Shown piece after piece: positions 31,920-58,396 of a stretch of 64,000 bases of DNA. A program made the position numbers and the translations under genes. How positions within the stretch are numbered: the stretch's first letter is position 1; every line of letters begins with the position of its first letter. Origin of the DNA: Phycisphaerae bacterium (GTDB lineage Bacteria > Planctomycetota > Phycisphaerae > Phycisphaerales > Phycisphaeraceae); contig JAUIGU010000011.1 of assembly GCA_030432595.1 (NCBI GenBank), positions 1 to 64,000 on the forward strand, read 5' to 3'. The notes under the pieces are model-generated. The model was not told the origin of the DNA. It searched no databases and saw only the letters and a program-made list of their open reading frames with translations.

Positions 31920-31925
31920 CCCGTG

Positions 31926-31990: not shown

Positions 31991-31996
31991 TCCGGC

Positions 31997-33205: not shown

Positions 33206-33210
33206 AAATG

Positions 33211-35892: not shown

Positions 35893-35959
35893 GGCAGCAA
35901 GTCGTGCGACGGCGTTCCGCTTCCTCGGTGTGATCTTTGATCGTGTCGAACATCTCGCC

Positions 35960-36355: not shown

Positions 36356-36406
36356 GCGAACCGGGCCGTGTCAGCCCGGAAACCGGGGTGACACACCCCG
36401 GCTCGC
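36356..36406. repeat. BIME: two abutting REP elements of the GCGAGCC family
   Basis: A plus-oriented copy (36356-36381, GCGAACCGGGCCGTGTC) abuts a minus-oriented copy (36381-36406, GCGAGCCGGGGTGTGTC on the minus strand). The same family in the same inverted pair lies inside the GT4 gene at 7388-7463. The surrounding 35893-36552 shows no gene. Confidence 0.7.
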
Positions 36407-36425
36407 TCAGAGGCGCACACGGTGT

Positions 36426-36457
36426 TCTTTCACAAGTGAATCCGAGGGGCGTTGTCG
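36426..36457. repeat. Dispersed 30-nt repeat, copy 2
   Basis: This is the second copy of the ACAAGTGAA / GGGGCGTTGTCG element at 93-122. It lies just downstream of the GCGAGCC-family BIME. Confidence 0.4.
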
Positions 36458-36552
36458 TCCCCAAAATCGTCCGTGTCATGTGCACGGATAGCCGACTCCC
36501 GGCTGAATGCACCCGGTCATAGATCGTTGTGTCAACGTGAGGAGCGGGCCGA

Positions 36553-38328: not shown

Positions 38329-38360
38329 GCCGTCAGCGTAGCCGCGATCGACCCCGGCGG

Positions 38361-39443: not shown

Positions 39444-39560
39444 GGCCCACCACGACTGCCTTAGCGGCGGTTCACTTTCACCAGCGTGACCCGCCACGTA
39501 CCGCCTCATGTGTCGATGCGCCCCACCCGTCTGCGTTCGAGCCCAGACCGGTCTGCCGCC

Positions 39561-39637
39561 ACACGCCGGCCCGCACGATCGGCGGTCGCTCCCGAGAAAG
39601 CCCAACAGGGCGGACGCCCGCGGCGAGACGGGCTCGG
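39561..39637 (-). pseudogene. Remnant of an ABC exporter 5' end
   Basis: The minus strand encodes EPVSPRASALLGFLGSDRRS followed by CGPA. Residues 9-32 of the exporter at 36553-38328 read EPVSPQAPSLLGFLWSHRRS followed by FGPG, 17 of 24 identical. Nothing after this matches the exporter, so it is a truncated duplicate lying upstream of the desaturase. The remainder of 39444-39780 holds no gene. Confidence 0.65.
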
Positions 39638-39780
39638 GTATGGGGGGAGGAAAGCGGTCATCCGTGCGATAGTCCGGCACTTCGCACTTGTGAATCCGAT
39701 ATCAACGAAAGAATTCGAGTATCATCTACGATGCCTTCGGATGTATCAGATAACAAGAAGCGCATAATCACGGAGCCGTC

Positions 39781-42435: not shown

Positions 42436-42554
42436 GCAAGCGCTCACCGGGTTCAGAAGACCAATAAGAACGCCGACCCCGCCACGAATGTGGAGCCCGC
42501 GCCGTCAGCGCTGTTCTCATTAGCCGCTTCACCGGCAATGCCGCGAAGCGGAGC

Positions 42555-44708
42555 TCAGTACGGCAACTCAAACACCGACTTCGCCAGGAACGTGAAGCCC
42601 ACGCCGAGGGTGCCGATGAGGCCCATGCCGCAGGAGAAGCCCGCGGCGAGGACGGGGGCGTATTGGCGCCACTTGAGGCCCATCTTTCGGCGGAAGTAGT
42701 AGTGGCCGATGAGGGCGCCGATGAATTGGCCGACGACGGCGAAGGGTAATGTTTGGTTGAGGCCGCGCACGATGCCGTAGGTGAGGAAGACCGGGGCGCC
42801 CAGCCAGGCGAGGCCGCCGAAGACGACGGCGCCGGCGACGAAGCCCGCGGCGATGTAGTCGAGGCGGAAGGCCTGTTCGAATTCGCTGTACCCGCCCAAG
42901 GTTGATGAGAAAACGAGCGAGAGGTTTTCGGCGGTGACCTCCCACCACTCCTGGGCGAAGGGGTACTGCGGGCCGGGGATCGGGCCGAGCGACCAGATGA
43001 AGTGGGCGAAGAGCAGCGAGCCGACGAGGATGATCGGCGTGAGCAGCAGCTCGGACTTCCAGATCGACGAGAACTTGGTGCCGGTGAGTTCGCACTGGCG
43101 GTAGAAGACGGTCATCGAGCCGTAGTTGTGCATGGGGATGGGCAGGAACCACACGGCCACGCCCTGGTAGCCCGACAGGATGAACGAGCCCTCGCGGACG
43201 AAGGGCAGGTTGATCACTTCGCCGGCGATGCCTTCGAGGCGGGCGGTGACGTAAGAGATGATCGGCGTGTAGATGAGCGCATAGAAGAGCATGATCGCCA
43301 CAAGCGGCCCGTGGATCTCGCCGTCGGAGATCCAGAGCAGCCAGCACGACACGCCGAGGTAGAGGGCGGTGGTGACGATGTAGGTGAGGATGACGAACCA
43401 GGGCTTGATGTCGCCGCGGCCTTCGGGGACGTCCAAGGCGTCGTCGAGCTCGATGCCGAGGCGTTGTTCTTCCTTGCGTTTGCGCTTGGCTTCGCGGACC
43501 TGCCGGAAGACGGAGATGAAGCCCGCGGCGGCGATGGTCAGCGCGACGCCGATGGAGAAACTGAAATAAAAGTCGACGTTGTTTTTGTAAACCGTCTGCT
43601 GCATGGAGTCGCCGGGGTTCCACGACGTGAGCGTGCCGCCGTCGTATGCGCCGAGCAGGGGGATCGCGTCGGGGAGCCCTGAGTGCAGGATGGGGTTGAG
43701 GACGACGGTGACGAGCAGCCCGATGAACGAGCCGACCATCGCCCAGAAGGGCAGCACCATGCCGAAGATGACCTGGCCCAGGTCGAGCGAGATGGCGAAG
43801 GCGACGGCGGGCAGGAGCGAGGCGGTGTCCTGCGTGTAGTCGACGAAGGGGATGGGCAGGAGGGTGATGGGGCGTTCGAAGAGCGCGCCGGTGACGGTGG
43901 GGATGCCGAGGTAGACGAAGCCGAACGCGAGCCCGATGATCGAGCCGATGGAGAAGACGCGCCAGCGCCAGTTGCGTTGTTTGTCGTCGTTCAGTGGATC
44001 GGTGGGATCATCGTCGGGCGCGTGGGTGAGTTGGTCTTCGTCCTGTTCTTCGGAGAGCGCGAGGATGCCCTGAGCGCCGATAGGGGCCATGGGGAAGGGG
44101 AGGCGCTCGATGTCGGAGGTGACGCGGAACAGGCCGTAGCCAAGCACCATGTTGTCGATGCGGCCGATGATCATGGTGAAGGCGATGAGCCCGATGGCGG
44201 GCAGCCACTCCCAGCGGAGCAGCGAGCGGGAGGCGAGGACCTCGGGGTCCATGGGCGCGACCCAGTTGAGGCCGTCCATGGCGTCGGCGACGCCGGAGGC
44301 CCGCGCGGCGTCGGACTGGACGTAGAACTGCGACCACAATGCGCCCAGGCCGCCGTGGAAGCCGCCTTGCAACTGCGACGCGGTGACCATGATCGCGCCG
44401 GAGATGTAGAAGAGCGTGAAGATCTGGGCCTTGCGGAGGTGCTGGTTGGCGCGGCGGGCGACCTCGATGAAGAGGATGAGCGTGACCCACTGCGCGGCCG
44501 GGCCGATGGATGCGCCGGCGAGCAGGGTCATGTAGATCGACCCGGGCACCATGAGCAGCGCGACGAAGAGCGCGCCCAGGAGCGACGACCACGTGAAGCC
44601 GTTCTCGAACGTGCCGGGCGGCACCATGAGGTCGCGGAACTCCTCGAGCTCGCGGTCGACGCGCTTGGGTTTGGGCGTCTTGGTGGTGGTGGGCTTCTGG
44701 GTGGCCAT
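42555..44708 (-). CDS. OPT-like oligopeptide transporter family membrane protein
   Basis: The 717-residue protein has about 15 hydrophobic helices. The stretch MVPGSIYMTLLAGASIGPAA near residue 57 and FIEVARRANQHL resemble OPT/YSL transporters, which import peptides or metal chelates by proton symport. A large hydrophilic loop with acidic residues (EEQDEDQLTHAPDDD) lies near residues 215-235. A cytosolic loop (EAKRKRKEEQRLG) lies near residue 405. It is the last gene of a minus-strand cluster starting at 56511 and is separated from the FtsX fusion by 177 nt that contain a G-rich inverted repeat, so it may have separate expression. Substrate is unknown. Confidence 0.72.
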   Translation of the reverse strand: MATQKPTTTKTPKPKRVDRELEEFRDLMVPPGTFENGFTWSSLLGALFVALLMVPGSIYMTLLAGASIGPAAQWVTLILFIEVARRANQHLRKAQIFTLFYISGAIMVTASQLQGGFHGGLGALWSQFYVQSDAARASGVADAMDGLNWVAPMDPEVLASRSLLRWEWLPAIGLIAFTMIIGRIDNMVLGYGLFRVTSDIERLPFPMAPIGAQGILALSEEQDEDQLTHAPDDDPTDPLNDDKQRNWRWRVFSIGSIIGLAFGFVYLGIPTVTGALFERPITLLPIPFVDYTQDTASLLPAVAFAISLDLGQVIFGMVLPFWAMVGSFIGLLVTVVLNPILHSGLPDAIPLLGAYDGGTLTSWNPGDSMQQTVYKNNVDFYFSFSIGVALTIAAAGFISVFRQVREAKRKRKEEQRLGIELDDALDVPEGRGDIKPWFVILTYIVTTALYLGVSCWLLWISDGEIHGPLVAIMLFYALIYTPIISYVTARLEGIAGEVINLPFVREGSFILSGYQGVAVWFLPIPMHNYGSMTVFYRQCELTGTKFSSIWKSELLLTPIILVGSLLFAHFIWSLGPIPGPQYPFAQEWWEVTAENLSLVFSSTLGGYSEFEQAFRLDYIAAGFVAGAVVFGGLAWLGAPVFLTYGIVRGLNQTLPFAVVGQFIGALIGHYYFRRKMGLKWRQYAPVLAAGFSCGMGLIGTLGVGFTFLAKSVFELPY

Positions 44709-44730
44709 CGGGTTAGAGCGCTTCGGGCGC

Positions 44731-44886
44731 GGGTCTGGGGGCTGGGGCTTGGGGTTTGGGTGGGTGGTTTGTGGCTGGGACGGGTGTCTTGTGTTGTTTG
44801 GTGTTGGAAAGTGGGATCAAGTTCGTGTTGTCGTGTTCTTGTGCTTTCTTGCTTCGGTCATACCCCAAACCCCAAGCCCCAGACCC
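44731..44886. repeat. G-rich inverted repeat, possible G-quadruplex
   Basis: Positions 44731-44760 on the plus strand hold five runs of three to five Gs (GGGTCTGGGGGCTGGGG, then CTTGGGGTTTGGG), enough for a G-quadruplex. Positions 44863-44886 are its inverted copy (CCCCAAACCCCAAGCCCC), lacking one 7-nt unit. The right arm overlaps the stop codon of the FtsX fusion gene. Confidence 0.65.
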
Positions 44887-47800
44887 TACTCACCCCCGCC
44901 CTGTCTCTCACTGGAACTCTGTCGCTCACCCGAGCCCATCGAGCGCAGCGCCTCGTCGCGGTAGCGCTGGATGGCTTGAGGGGAAAGCGTTCGCCACAGC
45001 AGGAACTGGCGGCGGAGGTCGCGGAGGAAGACGCGGTTGGTGCGGTTCCAGTCACCGGTGCTGCCGGAGGTGCGGGTGGCGGTGACGGCGACCTCGTCCA
45101 CCCCCGGGAGGTCGGTGGGGGTGGGGGACAGCGAGAACTCCTGCGTCACGCCCAGGTCGAACGGTGCGAGCGCGACCTCGGCGAAGAGTTCGGGTCGGCC
45201 GTCACTTCCTTCACGTAAGGCAACGGCCTGGGTGGCGAAGCGGCCGAGCCCGGCGTCGCGGTGGGCGGCGAGGTGCTCGGCGAGGAAGGCCATCACGCCG
45301 GTCATGTCGTAGGCCGAGAGCGTGAAGGGCAGGCGGGCGTCGAGCTTGCCGTCCTTGGGTTTGGGCGGCTTCCACGCACGTTCGACGCCGGGGTTGGCGG
45401 AGCGTGCGGCGCGCCAGGCGGGGTAGAGCGCCGAGATCATGACGGTGATTCCGACGGCGGTGATGGCCAGCAGCGCGTTGCTCGACGCGTAGTTGATCGG
45501 CAGCGGCCGGCCGATACCGGCGTCGCTGAGCGCCTGGGCGCTCGCGGCGAGGACTTGCGCGAGCAGTTGCCCGCCCATGCCGCCGACGATGGCGTAGACC
45601 GCGGCTTCGGCGACGAACAGTGCGCCGACGTGCGCGGGGCCAAGGCCCAATGCGCTGAAGGTGGCGATTTCTTCCTTGCGGTCGGTGATGGAGCCCAGCA
45701 GCGTGCCGAACACGATCAAGCCGCCGAGGATGAGCGGCACGAACAGCGAGGGCCCGGCGTCGAGCGCCGCGGTGACGCCGAGCGTGCGTCTTTCCAACCC
45801 CGTGGTCCCGGCGGACCAGACGGGGACGGTCACGGCGCGGGCGAGGTCGTCGGGCATGCGGTCGCGTGCTTCCGTGTCTTGCGTGAAGACGGTCAGCAGG
45901 TGTGTGTCGCCGCCGAGCTTGCGCGTGAAGTCGGCGCCGCCGACGATGGTCTGTGTCGCACTGAGGTACTGGAACTCCTGGGCGTTGAACTCGCCGGCCA
46001 TGATCCCGTCCGAACCGGCACCGGCAATCAGTGTCGAGGCGGCGTCGAGAAAATCAACGGGCAACAGCGGGCGGTTGTCGAGGTGACGCAGGCGCGTGAG
46101 CCCGTCGGGGTCGAACGTGCCGGTCACGGTGGCGCGGACGCCCTCGATGCGGATGACGTCACCGACGTCGAGGTCGAGGCTGCGGGCGAGGCGCGGCGGG
46201 AGCAGGACGCCGTCGCCGGACAACGCGTCGGCGATTTGTTTTGGGTCGGTCGACCCCTCGGAGTTGAGCGCGGCAGCGAGCGCGGGCCAGCGCTGCACGG
46301 TGTCGGGGGTCAGGCCAATGACGGCGCGGGCCTGGGTGTCGGCGGTGCCGTCGTCCCGGGCGAGCGCGAGCGAGATGCCGGACCACCAGACGATCGGCTC
46401 GGCCGTGACGTTGTTTCCGGCGAGGGCTTCGCGGGTGAGCTCGCGCAGCGCCGGCGGCAGTTCCGAATAGTCCGGGCTGCGCACGAGCAGCGCTTCGGGC
46501 GGAGCGGTGTCGGGGGTCGGGCCCAGCGGCGTGGTGCGGATCGCGAGCTTGGGTTCGAAGCCGGCAAAGCAGACGACGGTGAAGGTGAGCACGGTGACGG
46601 TGAGCAGCGTGAGCGCGGTGCGGGTCTTGCGGCGGCGCATCGTGGAGATGCCGATCTGGATGGCGGCGACGAGCGTGGCGGCGTGCGAGGTTTCGAGCTT
46701 GTGCGAGCCCGCGCCCTGGCCGTGCATCGCGGCGAGTTCGACGCGGAACTTGCGCGTCAGCAGCACAATCACCAAAGCCGAGAGCAGCAGGATGGTGAAG
46801 GCGAGGAAGATAAGCACCGGCGCGGTCGCGATGGCGAAGCCCGGGTGCGTGAGGTAAAGCAGCACGAACGTGAGGAGGAAGCACGCCGAAAACCCCGCGA
46901 CCCTGCCGTGGATGCTCGATGCGCCGACGACGAGGCGCTCGAGCGCGAACGAGAACGGGATGGTGAGGCCCAGCAGTACGACGATGCCGGCCACGAGGTC
47001 GTTCATGGTCGAACGCAGCGGCAGGTAGACGCGGCGCGACAGCGCGTAACTGAGTCGGGCGGAGGTGCCTGCGTCGTGGGCGTCCGTTGTGCCGGCGAGG
47101 TCGTCGGGCTTTGGCAAGGCGTCGCGGCCGCGGCGGTGCAGGCCTTCGAGGTCTTCACGGATGATGGCGCGGCGGCGGAGCTGGGCGAGGCGGTCTTCGT
47201 CGAGCGTCCAGAGGTTGCGGGCGCTGAAGAGGGCGGCGTCGCGGGTGGGTTTTGCGTCGGCTTCCCCCTCGGGCGCGTCGAATTCGAGTCGCACCGCGCC
47301 GCCTGCCTGGAAGAACGATGCGTGTTCCACATCCTGCGAGGGGTGGAGGTAGACGAAGCCGAACGGCGAGAGCTTGCCGCGGATGGAGGCGTTTCCGCGC
47401 GGCCGGGTGTCGCGGTGGGGGAGCAGAACGGTGAGCGGCTGGGCGTCGTTGTACTCGTGTGGGCGGAAGACCACGGCGTCGCCGCGCGCGGGCAGCAGGT
47501 CGGTGCGCGGTGTGGCGGTGAGGTTGGCGAGCATCGTCTCCCAGGTGGTGATTGCGTTGACCTGGCCCTGCGCATCGAAGTCGGCGGCGAGGGTGACGAA
47601 GTGCTGGTCGAGCTCGTCGTGCAGCGCGGGCAGGGCGTACCGGCCGTTGGCGTTGGTGCGGAGGCGGCGCGCGGGCTCGTAATAGGACAGCCCGGACTGG
47701 GCGTGGATACGCCAGGCGTTGTCGCGGCCCCAATCGCCCTCGTGGGTGGGCCAGACGGCGATCATGACGCCGGCGGCGGGGCGGTCTTCGGACAGGCCGC

Positions 47801-49748
47801 CGACGACCCAGCGCTGCGCGGAGGGCCCGTCGCTGCCGCGCGGCGACCACGCCGGCACGCGGCGGAGCGTGTGGTTGGTGAACGTGCCGCGGCGCGGCAG
47901 GCCGGGCCGGTCGATCGCGGCGCGGATCAGACGCAGCGCGGCGTCGCCCTGTTTGAAGAAGCGCGGGAGGTCGAGGCGGTCGGCGGTGTCGGCGGGTTGG
48001 CCTTCGCGCGGCCGGGCGTCATGCAGGTTCGTGAGCGCCAGATGAAGGAACGCGTGGTGCCCGGCGAGGGTGCCGGCGGTCGGGATCTCGGCGGGGACGA
48101 GGCGGCGTCCGCCCCACGGGTCGCGCAGCGTGCGCGGGTCCAGACCGGCCCACTCGTCGTCGGTGGTGCCGACGTTTTCCGGCAGGCTGCCGCGCAGGTG
48201 GGCGAGGACGGTGGCGTAGTACCCCGGCGCGTCGCCGCTGGGGCGCACGGCACGGGCTTGCGTGAAGTCGTCGGTGTCGTTGCCCAGGTACGCGCCCCAG
48301 GTCGTCGAGTCGCCGGAGAGTTCGAGGTCGATGTGGAGGCGGACGCGTGGCTCGCGGTCGGCTTCGGGCGCGATCAGTTCGCGGAGGGCCGCGCGCTGGC
48401 GGTCGATGCGTCGGGCGTCGGCGACGGATTGCTCGCTCTGCCGCACGAAGGCGGCGGCGCGCTCCAGGACCTCTTCGCGCACAGGTGAGTCGGCGAGTTG
48501 GTCGTCCGACGCGGCGTCAGGGTTGTGGAGCGCGCGGCGCAGGGCGTCCCACTGCTGCACCCGGGACGCAGTTTCTTTGAGTTGTTGCTCGATGCGGGCG
48601 GTGTCTTTGTCCGGGTTGGATAGGTCGAGCCGGAGCGTGCGGCGCCTCTGGGCGAGGTCGGCAGCGGCCGCGTCGGCTTCGCGCTGGAGAAGGCGGCGCA
48701 GCGCGTCGTCGTCTCCGATCCGTGCTTTGTCTTGGATCGCGGCATCGAGCGAGGCGCGGAGGGTTTCGAGGTGTTCCGCCTCGGCCTGGTGGTTGGCTTG
48801 TTGGTCTTCGAGCTCGTCGGGGTTGAGCGTGAGGGTGTCGTAGAAGACGCGCGACGCTTCGAGCCCGACGGACTGGCCGTTGAAAAACACGAGCAGCACG
48901 TCCTGGCGCGGCGGGTCGTCGGCCCAGCGCCGCGCGGCGCGGAGCAGGATCGCGGCGTTGCCGGCCTGACGTGCGCCGGGGCTGCGGTGCGGCACGCTGC
49001 CCAGGCTGTCGAGGGCGGCAGACAACACGATGACGCCGTCGGCGTTGGCGGCGGGGTCGGTGCCGCGGATCATGGCGAACACGCTCGGGGCGTGGCGCGG
49101 CCGCCACTGCGCGGCTGCGTGCAACGTGGCGCGCGGGTGGGCTTGCGTCAGGTCGATGACGGGTTCTGTGTCGTGGTCGGCGGGCGGGGCGTAGAAGCGC
49201 GGGAAGTTGACCGGTACGGAGGCGTGCTTGATGAACCGCGAGGCGTCGCCCGACGCGCCGTGGTTGCCGCTCAGGAAGATCACGGCCTTGGCGCCACGCT
49301 CGAAGGCGCGGTGCCACGCGTCGGGGACCACGCCGTAGTCGAGCACGGCGATGGCGCCTTGCAGGTTGGCGTGGCGCGCGTCGGGGGATTCGCCGTCACC
49401 GAGGTAGACGACCGGCCCGGTCAAACCGCCGGGCGGCGTGACGGGCGGCACGATGACGTTGGGTCGCATGAGTTCCAGCGACATCGTTTTGCCGCCGACT
49501 TGAAGCCAGACCTGTTCGGGGTCGCTGTCCAGCAACCAGACGGGCGTGTCGAGGGTCACCACGTCGTCGACGCCCGAGGCGTCGAGCTGATCGCGTACGT
49601 ACGCGACGGCGTCGAGATTCTCGTCGCTGCCGGCGAGGCGGTGCGGATGTTGCGTCATGGCGCGGACGTCGGCGGTGAAAGCGGCGGATGCTCTGTCCGG
49701 TGTCTGCGCGTTTGTGGATGTCAACAAAACACAAATCAATAGGCACAT
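44886..49748 (-). CDS. M28-pseudopeptidase / FtsX permease fusion protein
   Basis: The product has about 1620 residues. A signal-like N-terminus is followed by an M28 aminopeptidase-like fold with a PA-type insert (residues 20-310). The metal ligands are gone: the usual HxD strand reads LSAALDS, the GADDN loop reads GARQAGN, and the GEE motif reads GQSVGLEASR. A 130-residue coiled-coil-like helical region rich in Arg, Glu and Gln (about 310-450) and a beta-rich segment come next. Membrane helices appear near residues 915-1020. A MacB-like periplasmic domain (LDVGDVIRIEGVRATVTGTF) is followed by three FtsX helices near 1320-1440. ATG 49748 is chosen; TTG at 49754 has better Shine-Dalgarno spacing. 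The longer open frame reads through a repeat. Confidence 0.78.
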   Translation of the reverse strand: MCLLICVLLTSTNAQTPDRASAAFTADVRAMTQHPHRLAGSDENLDAVAYVRDQLDASGVDDVVTLDTPVWLLDSDPEQVWLQVGGKTMSLELMRPNVIVPPVTPPGGLTGPVVYLGDGESPDARHANLQGAIAVLDYGVVPDAWHRAFERGAKAVIFLSGNHGASGDASRFIKHASVPVNFPRFYAPPADHDTEPVIDLTQAHPRATLHAAAQWRPRHAPSVFAMIRGTDPAANADGVIVLSAALDSLGSVPHRSPGARQAGNAAILLRAARRWADDPPRQDVLLVFFNGQSVGLEASRVFYDTLTLNPDELEDQQANHQAEAEHLETLRASLDAAIQDKARIGDDDALRRLLQREADAAAADLAQRRRTLRLDLSNPDKDTARIEQQLKETASRVQQWDALRRALHNPDAASDDQLADSPVREEVLERAAAFVRQSEQSVADARRIDRQRAALRELIAPEADREPRVRLHIDLELSGDSTTWGAYLGNDTDDFTQARAVRPSGDAPGYYATVLAHLRGSLPENVGTTDDEWAGLDPRTLRDPWGGRRLVPAEIPTAGTLAGHHAFLHLALTNLHDARPREGQPADTADRLDLPRFFKQGDAALRLIRAAIDRPGLPRRGTFTNHTLRRVPAWSPRGSDGPSAQRWVVGGLSEDRPAAGVMIAVWPTHEGDWGRDNAWRIHAQSGLSYYEPARRLRTNANGRYALPALHDELDQHFVTLAADFDAQGQVNAITTWETMLANLTATPRTDLLPARGDAVVFRPHEYNDAQPLTVLLPHRDTRPRGNASIRGKLSPFGFVYLHPSQDVEHASFFQAGGAVRLEFDAPEGEADAKPTRDAALFSARNLWTLDEDRLAQLRRRAIIREDLEGLHRRGRDALPKPDDLAGTTDAHDAGTSARLSYALSRRVYLPLRSTMNDLVAGIVVLLGLTIPFSFALERLVVGASSIHGRVAGFSACFLLTFVLLYLTHPGFAIATAPVLIFLAFTILLLSALVIVLLTRKFRVELAAMHGQGAGSHKLETSHAATLVAAIQIGISTMRRRKTRTALTLLTVTVLTFTVVCFAGFEPKLAIRTTPLGPTPDTAPPEALLVRSPDYSELPPALRELTREALAGNNVTAEPIVWWSGISLALARDDGTADTQARAVIGLTPDTVQRWPALAAALNSEGSTDPKQIADALSGDGVLLPPRLARSLDLDVGDVIRIEGVRATVTGTFDPDGLTRLRHLDNRPLLPVDFLDAASTLIAGAGSDGIMAGEFNAQEFQYLSATQTIVGGADFTRKLGGDTHLLTVFTQDTEARDRMPDDLARAVTVPVWSAGTTGLERRTLGVTAALDAGPSLFVPLILGGLIVFGTLLGSITDRKEEIATFSALGLGPAHVGALFVAEAAVYAIVGGMGGQLLAQVLAASAQALSDAGIGRPLPINYASSNALLAITAVGITVMISALYPAWRAARSANPGVERAWKPPKPKDGKLDARLPFTLSAYDMTGVMAFLAEHLAAHRDAGLGRFATQAVALREGSDGRPELFAEVALAPFDLGVTQEFSLSPTPTDLPGVDEVAVTATRTSGSTGDWNRTNRVFLRDLRRQFLLWRTLSPQAIQRYRDEALRSMGSGERQSSSERQGGGE

Positions 49749-49785
49749 CGACAAGCCAATAACCTTCCGAATCGCGATCCTCTCC

Positions 49786-49903
49786 GCCCTCTCCCTTTCA
49801 GGGAGAGGGCCGGGGTGAGGGTCCGCTCGGGCGTCGCGGGTGACGTTGGCCCCGACCCTCACCGACCCGCTGCGCGGGCCACCTCTCCCTGGAAGGGAGA
49901 GGG
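49786..49903. repeat. BIME of the CCCTCTCCCT family
   Basis: CCCTCTCCCT-TTC-AGGGAGAGGG (49787-49809) and an inverted partner CCTCTCCCT-GGA-AGGGAGAGG (49882-49902) flank GGTGAGGGTC/GACCCTCACC arms. It separates the FtsX fusion gene from the ATPase gene. Family relatives lie inside the mutarotase and ketosynthase genes. Confidence 0.8.
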
Positions 49904-49957
49904 AGGATGGCCCAAGCCTCGCGCCGGGGTCTTGCGTCTTGTCTCGCAAGCCTTGCG

Positions 49958-50725
49958 TCACTGGTCGTCCTCCCCGGCCATGTGTCCGACGGTGATCTCG
50001 AGGTCTTCGCGCTTCTGGATGCGTTCGATCCGGCCGTCGCGGACCCAGACGATGCGGTCGCACATGGCGAGCAGGCGGTGGTCGTGGGTCGAGCAGATGA
50101 CGGTGACCTGGCGGTCTTTGTTGATGCGTTCGAGCAGGTCGAGCACCTCGCGGCCGGTCTTGAAGTCGAGGTTCGCGGTCGGCTCGTCGGCGAGGAGGAT
50201 CATCGGGTTGTTGGCGAGCGAACGGGCGATGGCGACGCGCTGCTGCTGGCCGCCGGACAGTTCGAGCGGGCGGTGGTCCCAGCGGTCGGCGATGCCGACC
50301 TGTTCGAGCAGCTGCATCCCTTTTTTGTGGGCGGTTTCGGCGTCGATGCCGGCGAAGACCATGGGCAGCGTGACGTTCTCGAGCGCGGTCATGTAGCGCA
50401 CGAGGTTGTAGGACTGGAAGATGTAGCCGATCTTCCGGCAGCGCAGGAACGCGAGTTCATTGGCGGAGAGCTGGGCGGCGTCGACCTCGTCGATGAGGAT
50501 GCGGCCGGCCGAGGGCGCGTCGAGCGCGCCGACCATGTTGAACAGCGTGCTCTTGCCCGAGCCGGACGGCCCCATGACGGCGATGAACTCGCCGCGGTGG
50601 AAGTTGATCTCGACCCCGCGCAGCGCGTGGGTTGCGGCGTCGCCCGTGCCGTACTGCTTGGCGAGGTCGAGCGTGCGGATCGCGGCGGGGCGTTCCTGGT
50701 CGGGATGGGGTGGGGTGTTGGACAA
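49958..50725 (-). CDS. ABC transporter ATP-binding protein, LolD/MacB type
   Basis: The 255-residue protein has Walker A GPSGSGKS near residue 53, Q-loop IFQSYNL, signature LSGGQQQR, Walker B ILLADEPT and H-loop STHD. It sits between the genes for two FtsX-type permeases (50870-52354 and 44886-49748), so it very likely energises one or both. LolCDE and MacAB complexes use such ATPases to move substrates out of the inner membrane leaflet into the periplasm. The start is a TTG at 50725, preceded by TATAAA only 3 nt away, so the exact start is uncertain. It is closely similar to the orphan ATPase at 30576-31334. Confidence 0.92.
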   Translation of the reverse strand: MSNTPPHPDQERPAAIRTLDLAKQYGTGDAATHALRGVEINFHRGEFIAVMGPSGSGKSTLFNMVGALDAPSAGRILIDEVDAAQLSANELAFLRCRKIGYIFQSYNLVRYMTALENVTLPMVFAGIDAETAHKKGMQLLEQVGIADRWDHRPLELSGGQQQRVAIARSLANNPMILLADEPTANLDFKTGREVLDLLERINKDRQVTVICSTHDHRLLAMCDRIVWVRDGRIERIQKREDLEITVGHMAGEDDQ

Positions 50726-50739
50726 CGTTTTATAGGTAA

Positions 50740-50835
50740 GCGGTTTTTATCAGGAGGAGCAGGATGATCAGGATTGGAGCAATATGAATCAGGCGGTGGT
50801 TGTTTTGTCCATCCTGCTCATCATGAAAATCCTGT
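50740..50835. repeat. Degenerate CAGGATGAGCAGGA-type repeat
   Basis: The 144-nt gap between the ATPase and FtsX genes contains CAGGATGATCAGGATTGG and, inverted, ATCCTGCTCATCATGAAAAT. Related text occurs near 10650. It is AT-richer than its surroundings and non-coding. Confidence 0.45.
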
Positions 50836-50869
50836 TCTGAATGACTCGGTGTTGTGTGCAGGGTTTCGT

Positions 50870-52354
50870 TCACTCGACGCGCATGGCGGCGATGGGGGGC
50901 AGGCGGGCGGCGAACCAGGACGGCAGGAGCGCGGCGATGACCGAGAGCACCACGCCCAGCGCGAGCGCGCCCAGCGCGACGAGTCCGAGCGTGCCCAGCG
51001 CGTCGCCCGCCATCGCGAGCAGCGTGCCGTAGCGCACGAACCCGCCGGCGGCGGCGAGCGCTAACCCCAGTGCCGTGCCGACGACCCCGCCGGCCACGCC
51101 CAGCGCCGCGGACTCGAGCAGGAACATGGTCATCACCGAGCCGCTGCGGGCGCCCAGGCACTTCATGGTGGCGATCTCGGAGAAGCGTTCGGTGACGGAC
51201 ATGGTCATGGCGTTGGCGACGCCGACGACGCAGACCAGGCAGGACAGCGCGATGAGCAGCAGCGTGCGCGGCGGCAGGCCGAGCCAGCGCGACTCGGTGG
51301 AGGCGGACATCGCAGCGGGTTCGTTCGTGGCGGCGGAACTCGAGGCGGGCAGGGCGTCGGCGAGGCGTTGCTCGCGGCGGGCGTGGTCGGCGTAGTCGAA
51401 CAGCGCGTCCGCGGTGGGCGGGGCGTCGGCGGTGTTGCGTTCGGCCAGGCGTTCGTGGAGCCAGGCGGCGTCGGCGGGCGTGGCGATCACGTCGCGCGCG
51501 ACCTCGGGGGTGACGCTGTTGATCGTGACCCGGGCCCGGCGTGCGATAGCGCGGCGGACGTCGGGGTCCTGTAGCGCTTCGGTCATGGCCGCGGCGGTGT
51601 GCAGACGCTCGGCGAACGGGCGCAGGTCGGTGAGTTGTGCCTCGGTGATCCGGAAGCCGGCTTCGGCGAGTGTTTGCGACGCCTGCTCGTCCGAGGCGTG
51701 TTGCATCGTCGCGGGGTCGAGCCGGCTCAGGGCACGGATATGCCCGGCGCGGATGCGTTGGGCGGTGGTCATGAGTCGGGCCAGCGGTTCGTCGAAGAAC
51801 GCGACCCATGGTGCGGCACCGCCGGGCGGTTCGAGTTGTCGTTCGGCGAGGCGCTGTTCCAGACGTCGGCGTTCGTCGGGGTCGTCGAGCTGGACGGTGG
51901 CTTCGAGGAGCGGCTGGTCGCCGAACAACAACACGCGGTCGTCATCGGGCAGGGATTCGTGCCAGCGCTGGGCGTCGTGCCACTGCTGCGCGAGCCACTT
52001 GGCGTCTGCCAGTTCGGTGTCGGTCAAGCCGGCCCATGTGGCGTATTCGGCCAGCCGTTCTTCGCCGCCGTGTTGAAGGGTTTCGGTGATGGTGCGGACG
52101 GTGTCAGGCTGGCGCAGGCGGGTGAGTTGGGCGTCGGCCTTTCGGTAGGGGGCGATCGCCTCGGCGGCGCGGCGTTGCACGGTGGTGTCGATCGTCGCCG
52201 CGGCGAACACATACACCAGGAACGCCACCGCCAGTGCCTGCACGGCGACGGTCACGCCCGACCGCATCAGTCGGAAGCCCACGCCGGTGGCGACTAGGCG
52301 CAGGCTCACGCCGGGCGACAAGCCCTTCTGCCGTTCGGCGGCGAGGCGCGTCAC
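50870..52354 (-). CDS. FtsX/MacB-type ABC transporter permease
   Basis: The 494-residue protein has the four-helix layout of FtsX permeases. One helix near residues 32-52 precedes a large extracytoplasmic domain (residues 55-355) that is helical, rich in Arg, Glu and Ala, and unlike the usual MacB domain. Three C-terminal helices follow, with the FtsX block TERFSEIATMKCLGARSGSVMTMFLLESAALGV near residues 390-425. The GTG start overlaps the PqqD-like gene's stop by 4 nt, so the two are translationally coupled. Its ATPase is almost certainly the next gene downstream. Confidence 0.88.
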   Translation of the reverse strand: MTRLAAERQKGLSPGVSLRLVATGVGFRLMRSGVTVAVQALAVAFLVYVFAAATIDTTVQRRAAEAIAPYRKADAQLTRLRQPDTVRTITETLQHGGEERLAEYATWAGLTDTELADAKWLAQQWHDAQRWHESLPDDDRVLLFGDQPLLEATVQLDDPDERRRLEQRLAERQLEPPGGAAPWVAFFDEPLARLMTTAQRIRAGHIRALSRLDPATMQHASDEQASQTLAEAGFRITEAQLTDLRPFAERLHTAAAMTEALQDPDVRRAIARRARVTINSVTPEVARDVIATPADAAWLHERLAERNTADAPPTADALFDYADHARREQRLADALPASSSAATNEPAAMSASTESRWLGLPPRTLLLIALSCLVCVVGVANAMTMSVTERFSEIATMKCLGARSGSVMTMFLLESAALGVAGGVVGTALGLALAAAGGFVRYGTLLAMAGDALGTLGLVALGALALGVVLSVIAALLPSWFAARLPPIAAMRVE

Positions 52355-52827
52355 GTGTCACCGCCGGGTTGGTTGTTTGTGTCGTGGTCTTCTTCCTCGT
52401 CCGCGTTGTCCGCATCGACCGTGAGCACGATCAGGCTGCGCTCGACGAGCATCTTCAGGAAGGCGGCGACCATCAGCCGGGCTTCTTGAAACGAGAGGTG
52501 GTGCCGGTCCGCAAAACCTTCGACCAAAGTTTCGACCGACCGTGTGTTGTCCACGTCTTCCCAGACCTCGCGTCCCAGCGTGTCGAGCGCGAAGCGACGC
52601 CGGCCGCGCAGCGGGAACAGCCAGGACAGCGGCGGCCCGTTCCACCACCGCCGACGGATCGGCAGTTCGAGTACGACCCCTTCGGCGGTCCGGCGTTCGA
52701 GCACGGCCTTGTTGCGCATCGGCACGCCGTGCAGCAGCTGTTCGACGCTCAGCGCTTCGGTGAAGCGGTGCGTGCGTCGGCGGGTCATCACGCGGCGGTT
52801 CCGGGCGGGGGCGGCGGTGGTCATCAC
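52351..52827 (-). CDS. PqqD-family protein (peptide-binding winged helix)
   Basis: The 158-residue protein contains a PqqD-like domain in residues about 75-140: RRFALDTLGREVWEDVDNTR, then VETLVEGFADRHHLSFQEAR and FLKMLVERSLIV. PqqD domains (RRE fold) bind leader peptides of ribosomally made peptides and hand them to modifying enzymes. No radical-SAM enzyme or precursor peptide is visible nearby. The N-terminal 70 residues are basic and the C-terminus is strongly acidic (DADNADEEEDHD). It is coupled by 4-nt overlaps to both neighbours, an FtsX permease and an unknown protein, so it is probably an integral part of this transport system. Confidence 0.85.
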   Translation of the reverse strand: MMTTAAPARNRRVMTRRRTHRFTEALSVEQLLHGVPMRNKAVLERRTAEGVVLELPIRRRWWNGPPLSWLFPLRGRRRFALDTLGREVWEDVDNTRSVETLVEGFADRHHLSFQEARLMVAAFLKMLVERSLIVLTVDADNADEEEDHDTNNQPGGDT

Positions 52828-53840
52828 GGCGTGTCCAGGGCGCAGCGGAAGTCGGCCGGGTCGAGTTCGCGCGCGGCACGGCGTTCGAGTTCGAGCGTGA
52901 GCAGGTGTTGGCGGTCGTGATCGACGCGGCCGTGGACCGCGCGGACGCGCGGCCGCAGGAGGCGCTGCCAGCGCGGCTGGTTCGCGCGGCCGGAAACGAG
53001 CGTGTCGAAGTCCGGGTGTGGGGACGGTTCGATTTCAATCTGTCGCCCGGAGTGTTGTTCGCGCAACGTCTTCGCGAGATCGCCGTCGAACCACGCGTCG
53101 AGCAACCCGCGGCGGCGCACGGCGACCACTGGGCGATGGGGCTTCGTGTCGATTGAAAAACACAGCGACACGTCAGCCGGATTGGCCACGATCCGGTGGG
53201 GCGTCCAGCCGGCGGGGGTGTGCGCGTGCAGGCCGAGCAGCCGCCATTGCGTGGCTTCGTCGGCCGCACAACGGACGTGCGCTCGGCGCAACAGTTGGGC
53301 CGTGTCGATCGTCGGGGACAGGGTTGCCTGAGTGTGCCCGTGCTGCGATGACGGATGTTCCGGGATGCACGGCGGGTCAGTGACCGTGATCTCGACGACG
53401 CGCGGGCCGAACGAATCCAAGCGCAGCGCCCGCCCCAGCACCGACCCGTCGTCGCGCCGGCGCGTCACCCACGCCCACGGCCCTTCGCGATGTACCGGGC
53501 AGACCTCCGAGTCTTCATCCTCGGCCAGGACCGCGTGGCGGTAGTTGTTCAGGACGCGGTGCGCCTCGAAGGTTGATGCATCTTGTTCTTTCAGTGTGTC
53601 CCAGCGCAGTTGCAGGCGTGGCCGCAGCCGATCGGCGAACACCAGCGCGCCGTGGTTCGGATTGCAGGCATGACGCACACACGCCCAGGCCCGTGGCAGC
53701 GCGAGTTCGATCCCCATCCACGCGACGTGCTGCGCGAACGCGCCCCCCGATTCCGGATCGGTGCCGAGCCCTTGCGGCGCAACCCGATGGGTCGGCTCGG
53801 TCGCCGCGGAGCGTCCGGGTTGCAGGGCGGTCGGGCTCAT
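52824..53840 (-). CDS. Unknown protein with an internal two-fold repeat
   Basis: The 338-residue protein is not recognised. It has no signal peptide or membrane helix. Two segments look like diverged copies of one domain: LPRAWACVRHACNPNHGALVFADRLRPRL near residue 48 and PAGWTPHRIVANPADVSLCFSIDTKP near residue 208, each with W, R/H, NP, F and D at like positions followed by strands. It is coupled by a 4-nt overlap to the PqqD-like gene downstream and lies 4 nt from the large membrane protein upstream, so it belongs to the same operon. A cytosolic adaptor or substrate-recognition role is possible but unproven. Confidence 0.7.
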   Translation of the reverse strand: MSPTALQPGRSAATEPTHRVAPQGLGTDPESGGAFAQHVAWMGIELALPRAWACVRHACNPNHGALVFADRLRPRLQLRWDTLKEQDASTFEAHRVLNNYRHAVLAEDEDSEVCPVHREGPWAWVTRRRDDGSVLGRALRLDSFGPRVVEITVTDPPCIPEHPSSQHGHTQATLSPTIDTAQLLRRAHVRCAADEATQWRLLGLHAHTPAGWTPHRIVANPADVSLCFSIDTKPHRPVVAVRRRGLLDAWFDGDLAKTLREQHSGRQIEIEPSPHPDFDTLVSGRANQPRWQRLLRPRVRAVHGRVDHDRQHLLTLELERRAARELDPADFRCALDTP

Positions 53841-53844
53841 GGCG

Positions 53845-56511
53845 TCATTGCGGGAGGATGATATAGCTCGACGGCGTGGTGCCGGTCGTGAGGTAGTACG
53901 TCACGCCGACGGCGGTCCAGACCAGCGCGGCGATGAGTTCGCCGGCGATCACGCCGACCATGAGCGGCTTGGCCGCGCGGTAGCCGTTGGCGCCGGCGAG
54001 CTTGACGACCGCGAGCTTGCACAGCCAACCCAGCACGAACGACCACGCGAAGCGCTCCATCGGCGTCGTGCCCCACACCAGGAACAGCACCGGGTGGATC
54101 GGCCACCACGGCAGGCGCAGCCGCGCCGCCGCGCACACCAACAACGCAACGAAGCCAGCGGTCGTCCAGCCCCACGCTCCGGGCGCTGAGAGCGACATCG
54201 AAAAGCGCTGCGTCCAATCGCCCCACGCGACGGGGATCAGCGTGCCGTCCGCCGACATGTCCTGCACGCGCCGCGTCAGGTCGTTCCACGCCATCTCGGG
54301 GAACCACTGCACGCCCCACCAGTCCGCGTTGTTCAGGCCCAGGGCGTACTGCATCGTCAGCGTCACGACGCCCGCGATCAGCAGCGACGCGACGACGACC
54401 CCCGCGACCATGACCCCGCCCGAACCCAGCGACGGCATGCGGCGGCGAGCGCGGGATTCGTTTTGCGTTTCTGCCGCAGATTCGTTGGCACCGAGGTTTG
54501 ATGCGTCTTTGCGTTCCGCGAACTTCAGGCTGTGCACGATGAACGGCAGCACGGCTTCGCGCTGGTCGCCGATGACGATCATGCTCGCCAGGCCGATCAG
54601 CAGCAGCCCGGTCGGGCCCATCGCCTCGTGACCCAGCAGCGCCGCCAGCACGCCCACCGGGATCAGGCCAGGCTGCACGTAGAAGCATCCCGTCTCCGCC
54701 ACGACGCGCGCCATCACCAGCCAGATACCCAGCGACACCACGATCAACACCACGGCCCAGCCCCACCCCAGGCCCGCCTGTTGCAGCCACCACACCGACA
54801 ACACGCCCAGCAGCACCAACGCACGCCCGGCCCACACCGCGGCGCGCGGCGTCGCGCCTCGATCCGCGTTCCAACCCACCGTGCCCAGCGCCACCGACAG
54901 GTAGTACCGCCGACCCGTGTAAGCGATCACCAGAACCATCGCGACGAACGAGCCGAAGCGCAGCAGGTTGCCTTCCTTCGCGTCGTAAAACCCCTGGCCG
55001 AAGCTCGCGCCGCTGCCGATGACGACGATGCCCAGCAGCAGCCACGCGAACATCGACAGGCTCATCGAGAACCCGACCGACAGCGTCAGGAAGAACGTGA
55101 ACGCGATCACCGATGGGTAGAGGATCGGGTAGAAGACGCGGAATGTCGTGGGGACTTTTTCGGCGCCGGGGATCGCCGCCCGCGCGGGCGTGAGGTCGAA
55201 CGACGTGCGGATCTCGGGCACCGCGTTGAACCACTGGTGCAGGCCGTTGACGCCGTGCAGGATGAACATCGACGCCACGCCGATCCAGAACAGCTTCGAC
55301 GAAAAGATCGCCGGGAGGATGCCCGGCCGGCCCTGCGCATCGCGGCCGCGCTCGACGGTTTCCGACACGAACGACACGAGCGGATACGGCAACAACTCGC
55401 GCCGGCTCCACTGCGGGTGCACGATCATGGCCAGGCACGTCGCCATCAAACCGAACAGCAGCAGCAACCCCGTCCAGCGGTACAGCGACGGCGCCCACAC
55501 TCGCCACGGCAGCGCGTCCCACGGCCAGCGTTTGTCTTCCTGACGGGTGACCAGCAAACCGTCCGTCACCCACGGGTCCGCCAGGCCGTGCGCCGGCAAC
55601 ACGCCGTGGCCCTGAGGCGGCGGCAGCACGTGCGCCGGCAGCGCCGACGCCAACGCCCACCGGTTCGCCATCCGCTCGGCGTGCAGCACCAGGCCCGACC
55701 GCGCCGCGGTGTCCCGTAACGACCGCGCCCGCGCCCGCAGCGCATCCACCCGGCCCGCTTCGGCTTGTTCGTCCGTTGTTTCGCGCAGCGCTTCCAGCTC
55801 GGCCTCGACCGCGGCGAGTTCTTCGAGCAATGCGTCGCGCGTCTCCAACCAACGCACCGCCTCGTCGGGCAGCGCCTTGCTCGGCAGCGTCTCTACCCAG
55901 TTCACCAGCATCAGCGTTTCGTTCAGCGCCTCGATCACCCGTGCGCGTTCGTCGCTGGGCACGCGGTCCGCGTCGTCGATCGACGTGATCAGCGCCCGCT
56001 GAGTTTCCGAGAGCAACCGCCACACCTGTGTTGCCGCGGCCCCCGCGTCGTCGGCGCGCAACGCCTCGCCGAGTGTTCGGCCGCCCGTGGACTGCGCCGC
56101 CTCCCGCCGGCCGACGCCGCGCACGTGCGCGTCGGCCAGCATCGGCGAGCCGTCCGGCACGTACGACATCACCCCCGCCGCCTGCCAGCCCGTCTTGTTG
56201 CGCACCATGTCGCCCGGCAGCGCGAGCGCCGTCGCGAACGTGCGGTACAGCCCCGACCCCGGCCAGCCGCACGCCGCGAGCCCCAACGCCGTCACCAACA
56301 TCAGCTCGCCCGAACGCAGCGCCCAGTTTTTTTTCACCCGCGCCAACAGCGGGTTGACCGCCAGCCCCAGCACGACCACGATCCCGAACACGCTGACCGG
56401 CAGAAAGTTCCCGATAAACGGCGTCTGTTGGATGACCGCGTCGTTGAAATACGTGAACGACGCCACGAGCAGCGCCAGCAACAAACCCAGGATGACCGCG
56501 CGACCACTCAA
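53845..56511 (-). CDS. Large polytopic membrane protein, OPT/DUF6785-like
   Basis: The 888-residue protein has about 16 hydrophobic helices. The first two (residues 5-57) are followed by WPGSGLYRTFATAL near residue 84 and a long extramembrane segment (residues 95-310) with a coiled-coil-like part rich in Glu, Arg and Leu. The remaining helices run from about 330 to the C-terminus. PGLIPVGVLAALLGHEAMGP near residue 630 and the general plan resemble DUF6785/DUF6784 proteins, which look like distant OPT transporters. It starts with TTG at 56511 and is the first gene of the long minus-strand cluster ending at 42555. The family name is tentative. Confidence 0.7.
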   Translation of the reverse strand: MSGRAVILGLLLALLVASFTYFNDAVIQQTPFIGNFLPVSVFGIVVVLGLAVNPLLARVKKNWALRSGELMLVTALGLAACGWPGSGLYRTFATALALPGDMVRNKTGWQAAGVMSYVPDGSPMLADAHVRGVGRREAAQSTGGRTLGEALRADDAGAAATQVWRLLSETQRALITSIDDADRVPSDERARVIEALNETLMLVNWVETLPSKALPDEAVRWLETRDALLEELAAVEAELEALRETTDEQAEAGRVDALRARARSLRDTAARSGLVLHAERMANRWALASALPAHVLPPPQGHGVLPAHGLADPWVTDGLLVTRQEDKRWPWDALPWRVWAPSLYRWTGLLLLFGLMATCLAMIVHPQWSRRELLPYPLVSFVSETVERGRDAQGRPGILPAIFSSKLFWIGVASMFILHGVNGLHQWFNAVPEIRTSFDLTPARAAIPGAEKVPTTFRVFYPILYPSVIAFTFFLTLSVGFSMSLSMFAWLLLGIVVIGSGASFGQGFYDAKEGNLLRFGSFVAMVLVIAYTGRRYYLSVALGTVGWNADRGATPRAAVWAGRALVLLGVLSVWWLQQAGLGWGWAVVLIVVSLGIWLVMARVVAETGCFYVQPGLIPVGVLAALLGHEAMGPTGLLLIGLASMIVIGDQREAVLPFIVHSLKFAERKDASNLGANESAAETQNESRARRRMPSLGSGGVMVAGVVVASLLIAGVVTLTMQYALGLNNADWWGVQWFPEMAWNDLTRRVQDMSADGTLIPVAWGDWTQRFSMSLSAPGAWGWTTAGFVALLVCAAARLRLPWWPIHPVLFLVWGTTPMERFAWSFVLGWLCKLAVVKLAGANGYRAAKPLMVGVIAGELIAALVWTAVGVTYYLTTGTTPSSYIILPQ

Positions 56512-57212: not shown

Positions 57213-57487
57213 GGCCGCCCACCCCGGGAACCCCCCGAATGCGGGTGCGTGCGGGTTGTCGTGCGGGTGGTCCAGCGTCGAAACACGGCCGAATTGTACC
57301 GATCCGGCACCCCGCCGAGCCTCCGCCGCCGCCCCGAAACCCGCCTCACGGCTCCAAAAACGCATTTTTTCGGGCCTGAACACGATTTGAGCGCGATTCT
57401 GCCGGGTTGGGGGGTGTGTTCTGAACCCCGTTCCGTTATCCTTATCCGGACGCGATCCGTGTATTCAGCCCCCGGAGGTTGTGAGTG

Positions 57488-58396
57488 ATGAACCGTGTTC
57501 TTGCCCCCGCCGCCCCGGCCCTGTTGGCCGCCGCGGCCTGCCTGGCCCCCGCCCCGGCCGACGCCGGCACGATGGTCGTCTTCGACACCGTGCTCGGCGA
57601 CATCAACGTCGAGCTCTTCGACGACGAGGCCCCGCTCCACGTCGCCAACTTCCTCGACTACGTCGAGTCCGGCGACTACGACGGCACCATCATCCACCGC
57701 TCCATGCCGGGCTTCGTCATCCAGGGCGGCCGCTACCTCTTCGACGGCCAGGACCGCGTCGAGCCCAACCTCTACCCCGAAGTCCCCTCGCGCGGGACCG
57801 TCCAGAACGAGCCGGGCATCTCCAACACCCGCGGCACCATCGCCTTGGCCAAGCAGCCCGATGACCCCAACTCCGGCAGCCGCGAGTGGTTCTTCAACCT
57901 CGCCGACAACTCCGCCAACCTCGACAACCAGAACGGCGGGTTCACCGTGTTCGGTCAGATCGTGGACGCCGCCGGCCTGGCCGTGATCGACGCCATCGCC
58001 GCGCTGCCGACCTTCGCCTTCGAGGCACCGTTCGAAGACGGGCCGGCCCGCAACTACTCCGACTCGGACTACGAAAACTTCGAGCCCGTCGGCACCGACG
58101 AACTGGTCATCATCAACGGCATCTCGGTTGTCGCGGAAGAGCCGGAGACGCCCGAAGAACCCGAGACCCCCATCGAGCCGATGGACCCCGAGGAACCGGA
58201 AGACCCCGAGACCCCGATCAACCCCTTCGACCCGGAAGACCCCGAAACCCCGGACGTCCCGGAAATGCCCGGCACCGGCGAATCCCCCGACACCGGCGAC
58301 GACGGCGGCAACCCCTCTGCCGTCCCCTCCCCGACCGCCTTCGCCGCGGGCCTGTTGGGCCTGGGCTTGCTGGCGTCACGCCGTCGGCAGGGCTGA
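57488..58396 (+). CDS. Secreted cyclophilin-type peptidyl-prolyl isomerase with sorting tail
   Basis: The 302-residue protein has a signal peptide ending PADAG. A cyclophilin domain (residues 29-205) contains IIHRSMPGFVIQGG, NTRGTIALAK and REWFFNLADN, the usual catalytic and substrate-binding blocks. A linker of about 60 residues made of PE/PD/PET repeats follows. The end, SAVPSP, a hydrophobic stretch and ASRRRQG, is a PEP-CTERM-like tail with VPSP in place of VPEP. The enzyme would catalyse proline isomerisation of exported proteins while anchored at the surface. GGAGG lies 10 nt before the ATG at 57488; a GTG three bases earlier is also in frame. Confidence 0.9.
   Translation: MNRVLAPAAPALLAAAACLAPAPADAGTMVVFDTVLGDINVELFDDEAPLHVANFLDYVESGDYDGTIIHRSMPGFVIQGGRYLFDGQDRVEPNLYPEVPSRGTVQNEPGISNTRGTIALAKQPDDPNSGSREWFFNLADNSANLDNQNGGFTVFGQIVDAAGLAVIDAIAALPTFAFEAPFEDGPARNYSDSDYENFEPVGTDELVIINGISVVAEEPETPEEPETPIEPMDPEEPEDPETPINPFDPEDPETPDVPEMPGTGESPDTGDDGGNPSAVPSPTAFAAGLLGLGLLASRRRQG

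Follow-up and report, generated by a model that had tools for sequence, protein, structure and literature searches.

A set of eight minus-strand genes from a Planctomycetota genome probably builds one membrane machine, with two ATPases as its power source and with a dead protease as its outward-facing part. The genes lie in a stretch of 64,000 nucleotides (hereafter the window), which comprises positions 1–64000 of contig JAUIGU010000011.1 (C20) of a Phycisphaerae bacterium (assembly GCA_030432595.1; 4.39 Mb in 73 contigs). The first-pass annotation of the window described seven of these genes as an operon-like envelope transport cluster. All seven open reading frames (ORFs) are present, and their recomputed coordinates bear out the tight coupling proposed for the first four, which are separated by a 4-nt gap (DUF6785/UNK) and by 4-nt overlaps (UNK/PqqD and PqqD/FtsX), while the later intergenic gaps are 144, 209, and 177 nt in gene order. 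The inventory of seven had missed an eighth member, the gene of a second ATPase at 30576–31334. The components, and one domain treated separately below, are as follows.

53845–56511, minus strand: polytopic membrane protein with DUF6785 and DUF6784 (Pfam), 888 aa from a TTG codon, with 12 hydrophobic segments by simple hydropathy
52824–53840, minus strand: tandem PsbP/Mog1/DcrB-like fold protein (the “unknown” protein, UNK, here the tandem-fold protein), 338 aa, by AlphaFold2 and VIA-align
52351–52827, minus strand: protein of the PqqD/RiPP recognition element (RRE) family, 158 aa, with a conserved N-terminal extension (Pfam PqqD, 1.2e-6)
50870–52354, minus strand: FtsX-family permease 1, 494 aa (Pfam FtsX, 2.3e-14), four hydrophobic segments, the first two separated by a large loop
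49958–50725, minus strand: ATPase 1, LolD-like, with Walker A, signature, Walker B, and H-loop motifs
44886–49748, minus strand: giant permease 2, 1620 aa counted from ATG 49748, with a leader, pseudo-M28 ectodomain, beta-rich domain, and FtsX core
44973–45359, minus strand: C-terminal domain of permease 2, residues 1464–1592, following the last hydrophobic segment and presumed cytosolic
42555–44708, minus strand: divergent OPT-family membrane protein, 717 aa (Pfam OPT, 3.6e-10), 11 hydrophobic segments by simple hydropathy
30576–31334, minus strand: ATPase 2, sister of ATPase 1 by profile score and tree

In line with the first-pass annotation, the seven clustered genes match, in gene order, Pfam DUF6785 and DUF6784, no family, PqqD, FtsX, ABC_tran, FtsX (with MacB_PCD just below its cut-off), and OPT. 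Their stretch contains no promoter-like sites and 11 terminator-like sites, compared with 7.4 in shuffled sequences, counts that are not informative on the existence of a single operon.

Recurrence of the gene set across genomes

An alignment of the giant protein was scanned against named genomes, yielding 399 relatives, of which the 80 best-scoring loci were kept; linkage may be lower in the remainder. Genes in the compared loci were read as stop-to-stop frames, and linkage was counted within distance limits set by the authors, using only loci with enough flanking sequence. By title, 71 of the 80 loci belong to phyla of the Planctomycetes–Verrucomicrobia–Chlamydiae (PVC) group: 20 to Planctomycetota, 26 to Lentisphaerae and kin, 10 to Kiritimatiellae, 14 to Verrucomicrobia and kin, and 1 to “PVC group.” The others are titled Chitinivibrionales (3), Myxococcales (1), and Omnitrophota (1), or are unassigned (4). 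The OPT gene lies downstream of the giant gene in 66/66 loci with room for it, and is followed by ATPase 2 in 53/57. Upstream of the giant gene stand ATPase 1 (55/58), FtsX permease 1 (53/54), the PqqD gene (39/46), the tandem-fold gene (37/46), and the DUF6785 gene (29/46, or 33/46 if any position in the locus is accepted). When neighboring ORFs were clustered, no other group was common to more than 6 of the 80 loci. Because the same genes occur together in many genomes while other neighbors are shared by so few loci, their association goes beyond chance.

The tandem-fold protein, searched in 61 relatives of the source genome, had matches in 11 genomes, and the DUF6785 protein, searched in 149 genomes of the phylum, had matches in 22. 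The same genes recur in 20 regions around these matches, with the order also retained in, e.g., L054, L058, L059, and L060; 7 of the 20 regions are the same records as 7 of the 80 loci, so that the two data sets are not independent. Other families of the phylum show rearrangement, with the DUF6785 gene moved in two regions (L065, L067) and the tandem-fold or PqqD gene missing from four (L064, L069–L071). The giant and OPT genes were found in the same 18 of the 61 relatives (counts uncorrected for kinship) and, as read from coordinates, are adjacent in 17 of them, the exception being G004. Scattering in related genomes, which the first-pass annotation had named as grounds for abandoning its proposal, was thus mostly absent. 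Its claim of a coherent transport gene set of conserved order holds, on the linkage counts over 80 loci and the recurrence in 20 regions, and association of these genes across genomes is well supported by sequence comparison.

The system is patchy rather than universal, and it is multi-copy in some genomes. All 18 positive relatives belong to the family of the window, with none among 24 genomes from other families of the order. The tandem-fold protein occurs in 17 of the 61 relatives, 16 of them also in the giant-gene set; it was not found in G001 or G030, and it is present without the giant gene and OPT in G002, a genome of 66% completeness. In the class of Oligosphaera the giant gene is carried by 27 of 78 genomes; the isolate Oligosphaera ethanolica DSM 24202 has two. 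Multiple copies are also seen in G025, with eight matches each for the giant gene and OPT. A second arrangement, in which giant, OPT, DUF6785-like, tandem-fold, and PqqD genes follow a different order, was seen in L063 (G028) and L072 (G030). Many Lentisphaeria genomes contain a second, lower-scoring giant gene, perhaps of this subtype.

Paired permeases and ATPases at the core

The giant permease 2 gave a PDB sequence match to 2ek8 (2.6e-6), and AlphaFold2 modeled its residues 1–910 with a pLDDT of 87.4 and a pTM of 0.91. In VIA-align comparisons the ectodomain model resembled the BSAP aminopeptidase (Z 26.0 over 370 residues, root-mean-square deviation 5.4), 2ek8 (Z 25.2), and the transferrin receptor 3kas (Z 24.5). 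The model also shows a further beta-rich domain, and a helical hairpin region is inserted at its residues ~310–459. The active-site columns tell a different story from the fold. Of 66 sequences, that of the window among them, 7 have the histidine of the HxD motif, 2 the bridging aspartate, 3 the first glutamate, and none the second; apart from the HxD aspartate the scoring covered these four positions, the last aspartate and histidine ligands lying outside it, and the register of the bridging aspartate was taken from the 2ek8 alignment, with a one-residue shift. The HxD aspartate itself is kept in 65/66. A working M28 aminopeptidase was rejected, as two of the four scored residues occur together in 0/66 sequences. 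Hence the “M28-like” label of the annotation was apt for the fold and misleading if taken to mean a working enzyme: model and alignment show a predicted M28 aminopeptidase fold from which the catalytic residues are missing. The residues that replace the active site are themselves conserved (LDSFGEVP, PGARxAAN, and DNQAR), which points to a binding or structural site that has been kept rather than to decay. The transferrin receptor likewise has an M28-type fold and is not a peptidase. Compared with the M28 aminopeptidases and that receptor, the giant protein shares the fold and differs in the lost active site, the inserted helical hairpin, and the fusion to FtsX. In one neighborhood (L064/L135, G169:C414) two adjacent ORFs divide the giant between them, one for the M28-like part (430 aa) and the other, of 1285 aa, for the FtsX part, which suggests two modules.

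Hydropathy places three extra hydrophobic segments ahead of the four FtsX core segments of permease 2, an arrangement that fits a periplasmic ectodomain combined with normal FtsX topology. At its C-terminus, the 129-residue domain at 44973–45359 is conserved at a mean column identity of 72% (n = 30), with FPFTVS and APFDLG motifs. It gave no PDB sequence match at E ≤ 1 and one weak Pfam match in 1 of 30 members, and a PsbP-like assignment was rejected (hhalign 0.7%). The ORF as first read opens at GTG 50063, and residue 106 corresponds to ATG 49748, where a hydrophobic leader begins. Relatives align from about this ATG, also beginning with the leader. Since their leader matches ATG 49748 and an inverted repeat (49783–49808/49882–49907) lies in the stretch between the two codons, the GTG start is doubtful and 49748 is, on sequence grounds, most likely the true start. 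Another inverted repeat (44731–44760/44859–44886) occupies the gap before the OPT gene; it has 56 other short matches genome-wide and resembles a dispersed repeat of the repetitive extragenic palindromic (REP) type.

ATPase 2 adjoins the OPT gene in most loci, whereas in the window it lies 11,220 nt (11.2 kb) beyond it. Its assignment rests on a score of 389.8 with the ATPase-2 profile versus 324.8 with the ATPase-1 profile, and on a single FastTree run of 119 sequences (~250-residue segments), for which 14 of the 17 other ATPase loci of the same genome gave a segment. In this tree the conserved ATPase-1 set includes ATPase 1 (support 0.998) and the ATPase-2 set includes the gene at 30576–31334 (0.983), while the union of both sets (0.955) stands apart from the 14 other ATPases of the genome. 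Motifs and tree show the two to be, at the sequence level, sister paralogues with motifs intact. In a congener (G001) ATPase 2 (83% identical) is likewise displaced: it shares the strand of OPT, lies ~13.4 kb away from it, and adjoins the same major facilitator superfamily (MFS) gene. The interval in the window (31350–42500) contains an exoenzyme-like ORF (alginate-lyase-like or other, with no clear Pfam family), an ABC exporter, GH51, and GH5; none of these four ORFs has a match in the corresponding G001 interval. With contents that differ between the two genomes, the interval looks like an insertion hot spot.

Both permeases exceed the Pfam cut-off for FtsX and have four core segments, the first two of which are separated by a large extracytoplasmic part, and both ATPases are LolD/FtsE-like with intact motifs, features that define type VII ATP-binding cassette (ABC) systems. 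Family membership argues strongly that these permeases and ATPases would assemble into a type VII unit. LolD is the top-scoring NCBIfam model for both ATPases, with scores (219.8 and 229.0) that do not reach its cut-off of 307.75; the lolCE model likewise falls short (35.4 and 27.0 against 362.45). A second Lol-like locus, on contig C17 of the same genome, also misses the LolD and LolCE cut-offs. Identity with the housekeeping Lol system was rejected on these scores and on the presence of the other locus; given the locus on C17, the gene set need not be that system.

The type VII systems LolCDE, MacAB, YbbAP-TesA, FtsEX, and BceAB share with this set LolD-like ATPases, separate FtsX-type permeases, and a large periplasmic part between core segments 1 and 2, although MacB itself joins ATPase and permease in one chain where here they are separate genes. 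What sets the present genes apart is that the ATPases are of two distinct kinds and the permeases unlike each other, that three extra segments are preceded by a pseudo-M28 ectodomain, that a C-terminal domain without a known family is conserved, and that OPT, DUF6785, PqqD, and tandem PsbP-like partners are present. We know of no such partners in any of the five systems. In YbbAP-TesA, a type VII unit extracts amphipathic or hydrophobic cargo from the inner membrane and offers it to a hydrolase (PMC12646458). The likeness lies in a type VII unit with a hydrolase-fold partner over its periplasmic domains; the difference is that TesA is active and a separate enzyme, whereas here the enzyme fold is part of a permease and has lost its active-site residues, and that YbbP is one duplicated chain whereas here there are two permeases (PMC12646458). 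The annotation had supposed that FtsX/LolD complexes move substrates out of the inner membrane. This is true of some members, whereas those of the FtsEX type transmit force instead.

The core of the set can be regarded as a variant of the type VII ABC systems, and its partners possibly make it more than that. A search of the literature on DUF6785, DUF6784, OPT-like transporters, and PqqD/FtsX/M28/OPT combinations in Lentisphaerae and Planctomycetes gave no description of it, in agreement with the annotation's statement that no named counterpart came to mind; subscription literature was thinly covered, so that absence is not proof, and the gene set is apparently undescribed.

Presumed cytosolic pair and carrier-like membrane proteins

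The “unknown two-repeat protein” of the annotation is indeed built of two domains, its AlphaFold2 model (pLDDT 81.9) having a tandem PsbP/Mog1/DcrB-like fold. By VIA-align, the first half (residues 33–190) resembles cyanobacterial PsbP 2xb3 (Z 12.2), DcrB (10.9), and the Eag chaperone SciW (8.9), and the second half (residues 197–336) resembles Tsi3 4n7s (9.5) and RseB (8.1); PsbP also ranks first in Foldseek (6.9e-4). Sequence comparison gave no Pfam family and, among 42 members, one weak PsbP match in a single protein. Hydropathy reveals no hydrophobic segment, and the protein is presumed cytosolic. Its neighbor scores 29.1 bits against the PqqD cut-off of 23.4, 40 of 41 homologues match PqqD at E ≤ 0.01, and the profile of the family finds the PqqD-type proteins of lasso peptides in PDB (2.1e-5). 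The two are fused into one chain in four loci (L080, L087, L102, L127). Profiles and modeling together show that these small proteins have predicted PqqD and tandem PsbP/Mog1/DcrB-like folds and that they can form one chain.

Eag chaperones, whose fold is DcrB-like, act as claw-shaped dimers that hold transmembrane helices (PMC7773334). By analogy, a tandem of two domains in one chain could hold such helices as the Eag dimer does; the fold of Eag/DcrB and PsbP/Mog1 proteins is found in both halves of the tandem-fold protein, with the difference that Eag is a dimer and here two domains share a chain (PMC7773334). No type VI secretion system (T6SS) genes were noticed in the clustering of neighbors over the 80 loci, in which no search aimed at T6SS was made. 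For the PqqD partner, the RRE-Finder paper warns that PqqD-like proteins exist outside clusters for ribosomally synthesized and post-translationally modified peptides (RiPPs) (PMC7470986). A PqqD-family protein beside transporter genes is common to RiPP clusters with an RRE and to this set, which differs in that no small ORF or maturation enzyme recurs beside it: small-ORF clusters next to the genes are limited to ≤4 loci, from close relatives, and shared enzymes to ≤6/80 loci. An RRE-dependent RiPP cluster was rejected, with neither precursor peptide nor maturation enzyme beside the PqqD gene.

Of the two large membrane proteins, that at 42555–44708 passes the Pfam OPT cut-off (39.6 versus 25.8 bits) with a weak match to the middle of the profile; of 28 homologues, 20 match the family at E ≤ 0.01. 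No NCBIfam OPT model matched it at E ≤ 0.1, and its profile found no match among PDB sequences; that of the DUF6785 protein found one weak match (E 0.19). With a mean column identity of 57%, the OPT protein is among the most conserved parts of the set, and it differs from other members of the family (PF03169) in sitting beside an ABC unit. The first membrane protein had been called “OPT/DUF6785-like.” Pfam confirms DUF6785 together with DUF6784, and kinship with OPT is not established, as no OPT match occurs in 27 DUF6785 members and hhalign between the two families gives a probability of 1.9–3.6%, an E-x-LP-[FY]-P stretch being common to both.

A proposed machine and its alternatives

The components may tentatively be combined into one multi-subunit inner-membrane machine that would couple a type VII ABC unit to polytopic carriers and a cytosolic recognition pair and would move cargo outward, this cargo being peptide-like or amphipathic. 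In this scheme the two sister ATPases and the two permeases of the FtsX type would assemble into a MacB/Lol-like unit, whose periplasmic parts would be set in motion by ATP binding in the cytosol. Also in the cytosol, the PqqD/tandem-fold pair would capture cargo, either a peptide or a protein that has a leader or hydrophobic segment; the OPT protein, together with the DUF6785 protein where present, would carry it over the inner membrane; and the pseudo-peptidase ectodomain would bind its exposed end and, on ATP hydrolysis, lift it from the outer leaflet for hand-over. A fuller and more doubtful version is a transport machine of a new kind, a secretion or display route centered on the PVC bacteria, in which paired, diverged ATPases and permeases power OPT-type carriers, an RRE/DcrB-like module selects the cargo, and a dead peptidase resembling the transferrin receptor takes it over in the periplasm.

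Several observations weigh against these proposals. Complex formation, direction, and cargo are what we infer from gene comparison, outward transport being the least certain step, and a common fold does not show function. A UNK–PqqD pair stands alone in L061 and L062, as does DUF6785 in L066, with the rest of the set not within ~20 kb (DUF6785 is also alone in L068, on a contig of only 4.6 kb), and G004 carries its giant, OPT, and tandem-fold genes far apart. PqqD is absent from 7/46 upstream regions, the tandem-fold protein from 9/46, and DUF6785 from 17/46, so these three are not obligatory. Neither a precursor peptide nor a modifying enzyme recurs next to the genes, as judged from the neighbors in the 80 loci and from the small-ORF scan.

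The principal alternative, which we consider somewhat improbable, is uptake: the ectodomain would be a periplasmic receptor at which peptides, metal–peptide, or similar ligands are concentrated, the ABC unit would open or feed proton-coupled import through OPT/DUF6785, and the PqqD/tandem-fold pair would receive the ligand inside. OPT proteins of known function are importers of peptides or metal chelates, a fact that favors uptake over the outward machine, as do membership of the OPT family, the strong conservation of the OPT protein, and the plausibility of an M28-fold domain as a peptide receptor. Against this, characterized type VII units act on the periplasmic side or outward, and RRE-type proteins bind the leaders of newly synthesized peptides (PMC7470986).

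It is unlikely that the set serves envelope lipid or lipoprotein trafficking, as a Lol-like or YbbAP-like extractor that draws an amphipathic molecule out of the inner membrane, OPT being its flippase-like partner. The ranking of LolD as best model for both ATPases, the extraction of hydrophobic compounds by YbbAP-TesA, and a PVC distribution that may suggest an envelope function are in its favor; the LolD and LolC/E scores lie below cut-offs, another Lol-like locus is present, and PqqD would be left unexplained. Quite unlikely is the transmission of force or signals as in FtsEX or BceAB, in which the ectodomain would sense a ligand or control an envelope enzyme, with the ABC unit as relay. 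FtsX-type permeases with large ectodomains and the FtsEX precedent agree with such a role, whereas two large polytopic carrier-like proteins in the set do not, nor does any conserved histidine kinase, regulator, or cell-wall enzyme accompany the genes, other neighbor clusters being confined to ≤6/80 loci. That these are mere neighbors, e.g., a core ABC unit and separately acting carriers moved jointly by horizontal transfer, would account for the optional parts, the scattering in G004, and the two sub-arrangements (L063 and L072 versus L054), and is very improbable given linkage of 66/66, 55/58, 53/54, and 53/57 over several phyla and the identical presence of the giant gene and OPT in 18/61 genomes.

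Elsewhere in the window, a 1169-aa ORF (24238–27747) has a weak PEP-CTERM match, and a peptidyl-prolyl-isomerase-like ORF (57485–58396) ends in a hydrophobic-arginine tail that, by eye, is similar to that of the former.

Envelopes are unusual in the PVC bacteria, few of which are genetically tractable, and most envelope transport in the group is annotated by distant analogy. The gene set described here can be traced in hundreds of genomes, including that of the isolate Oligosphaera ethanolica DSM 24202, and offers testable partners. If its parts work together, a type VII ABC unit would be joined to OPT carriers, a combination of which we know no joint description, and a dead M28 peptidase would act as a bacterial receptor, much as the transferrin receptor does in animals.

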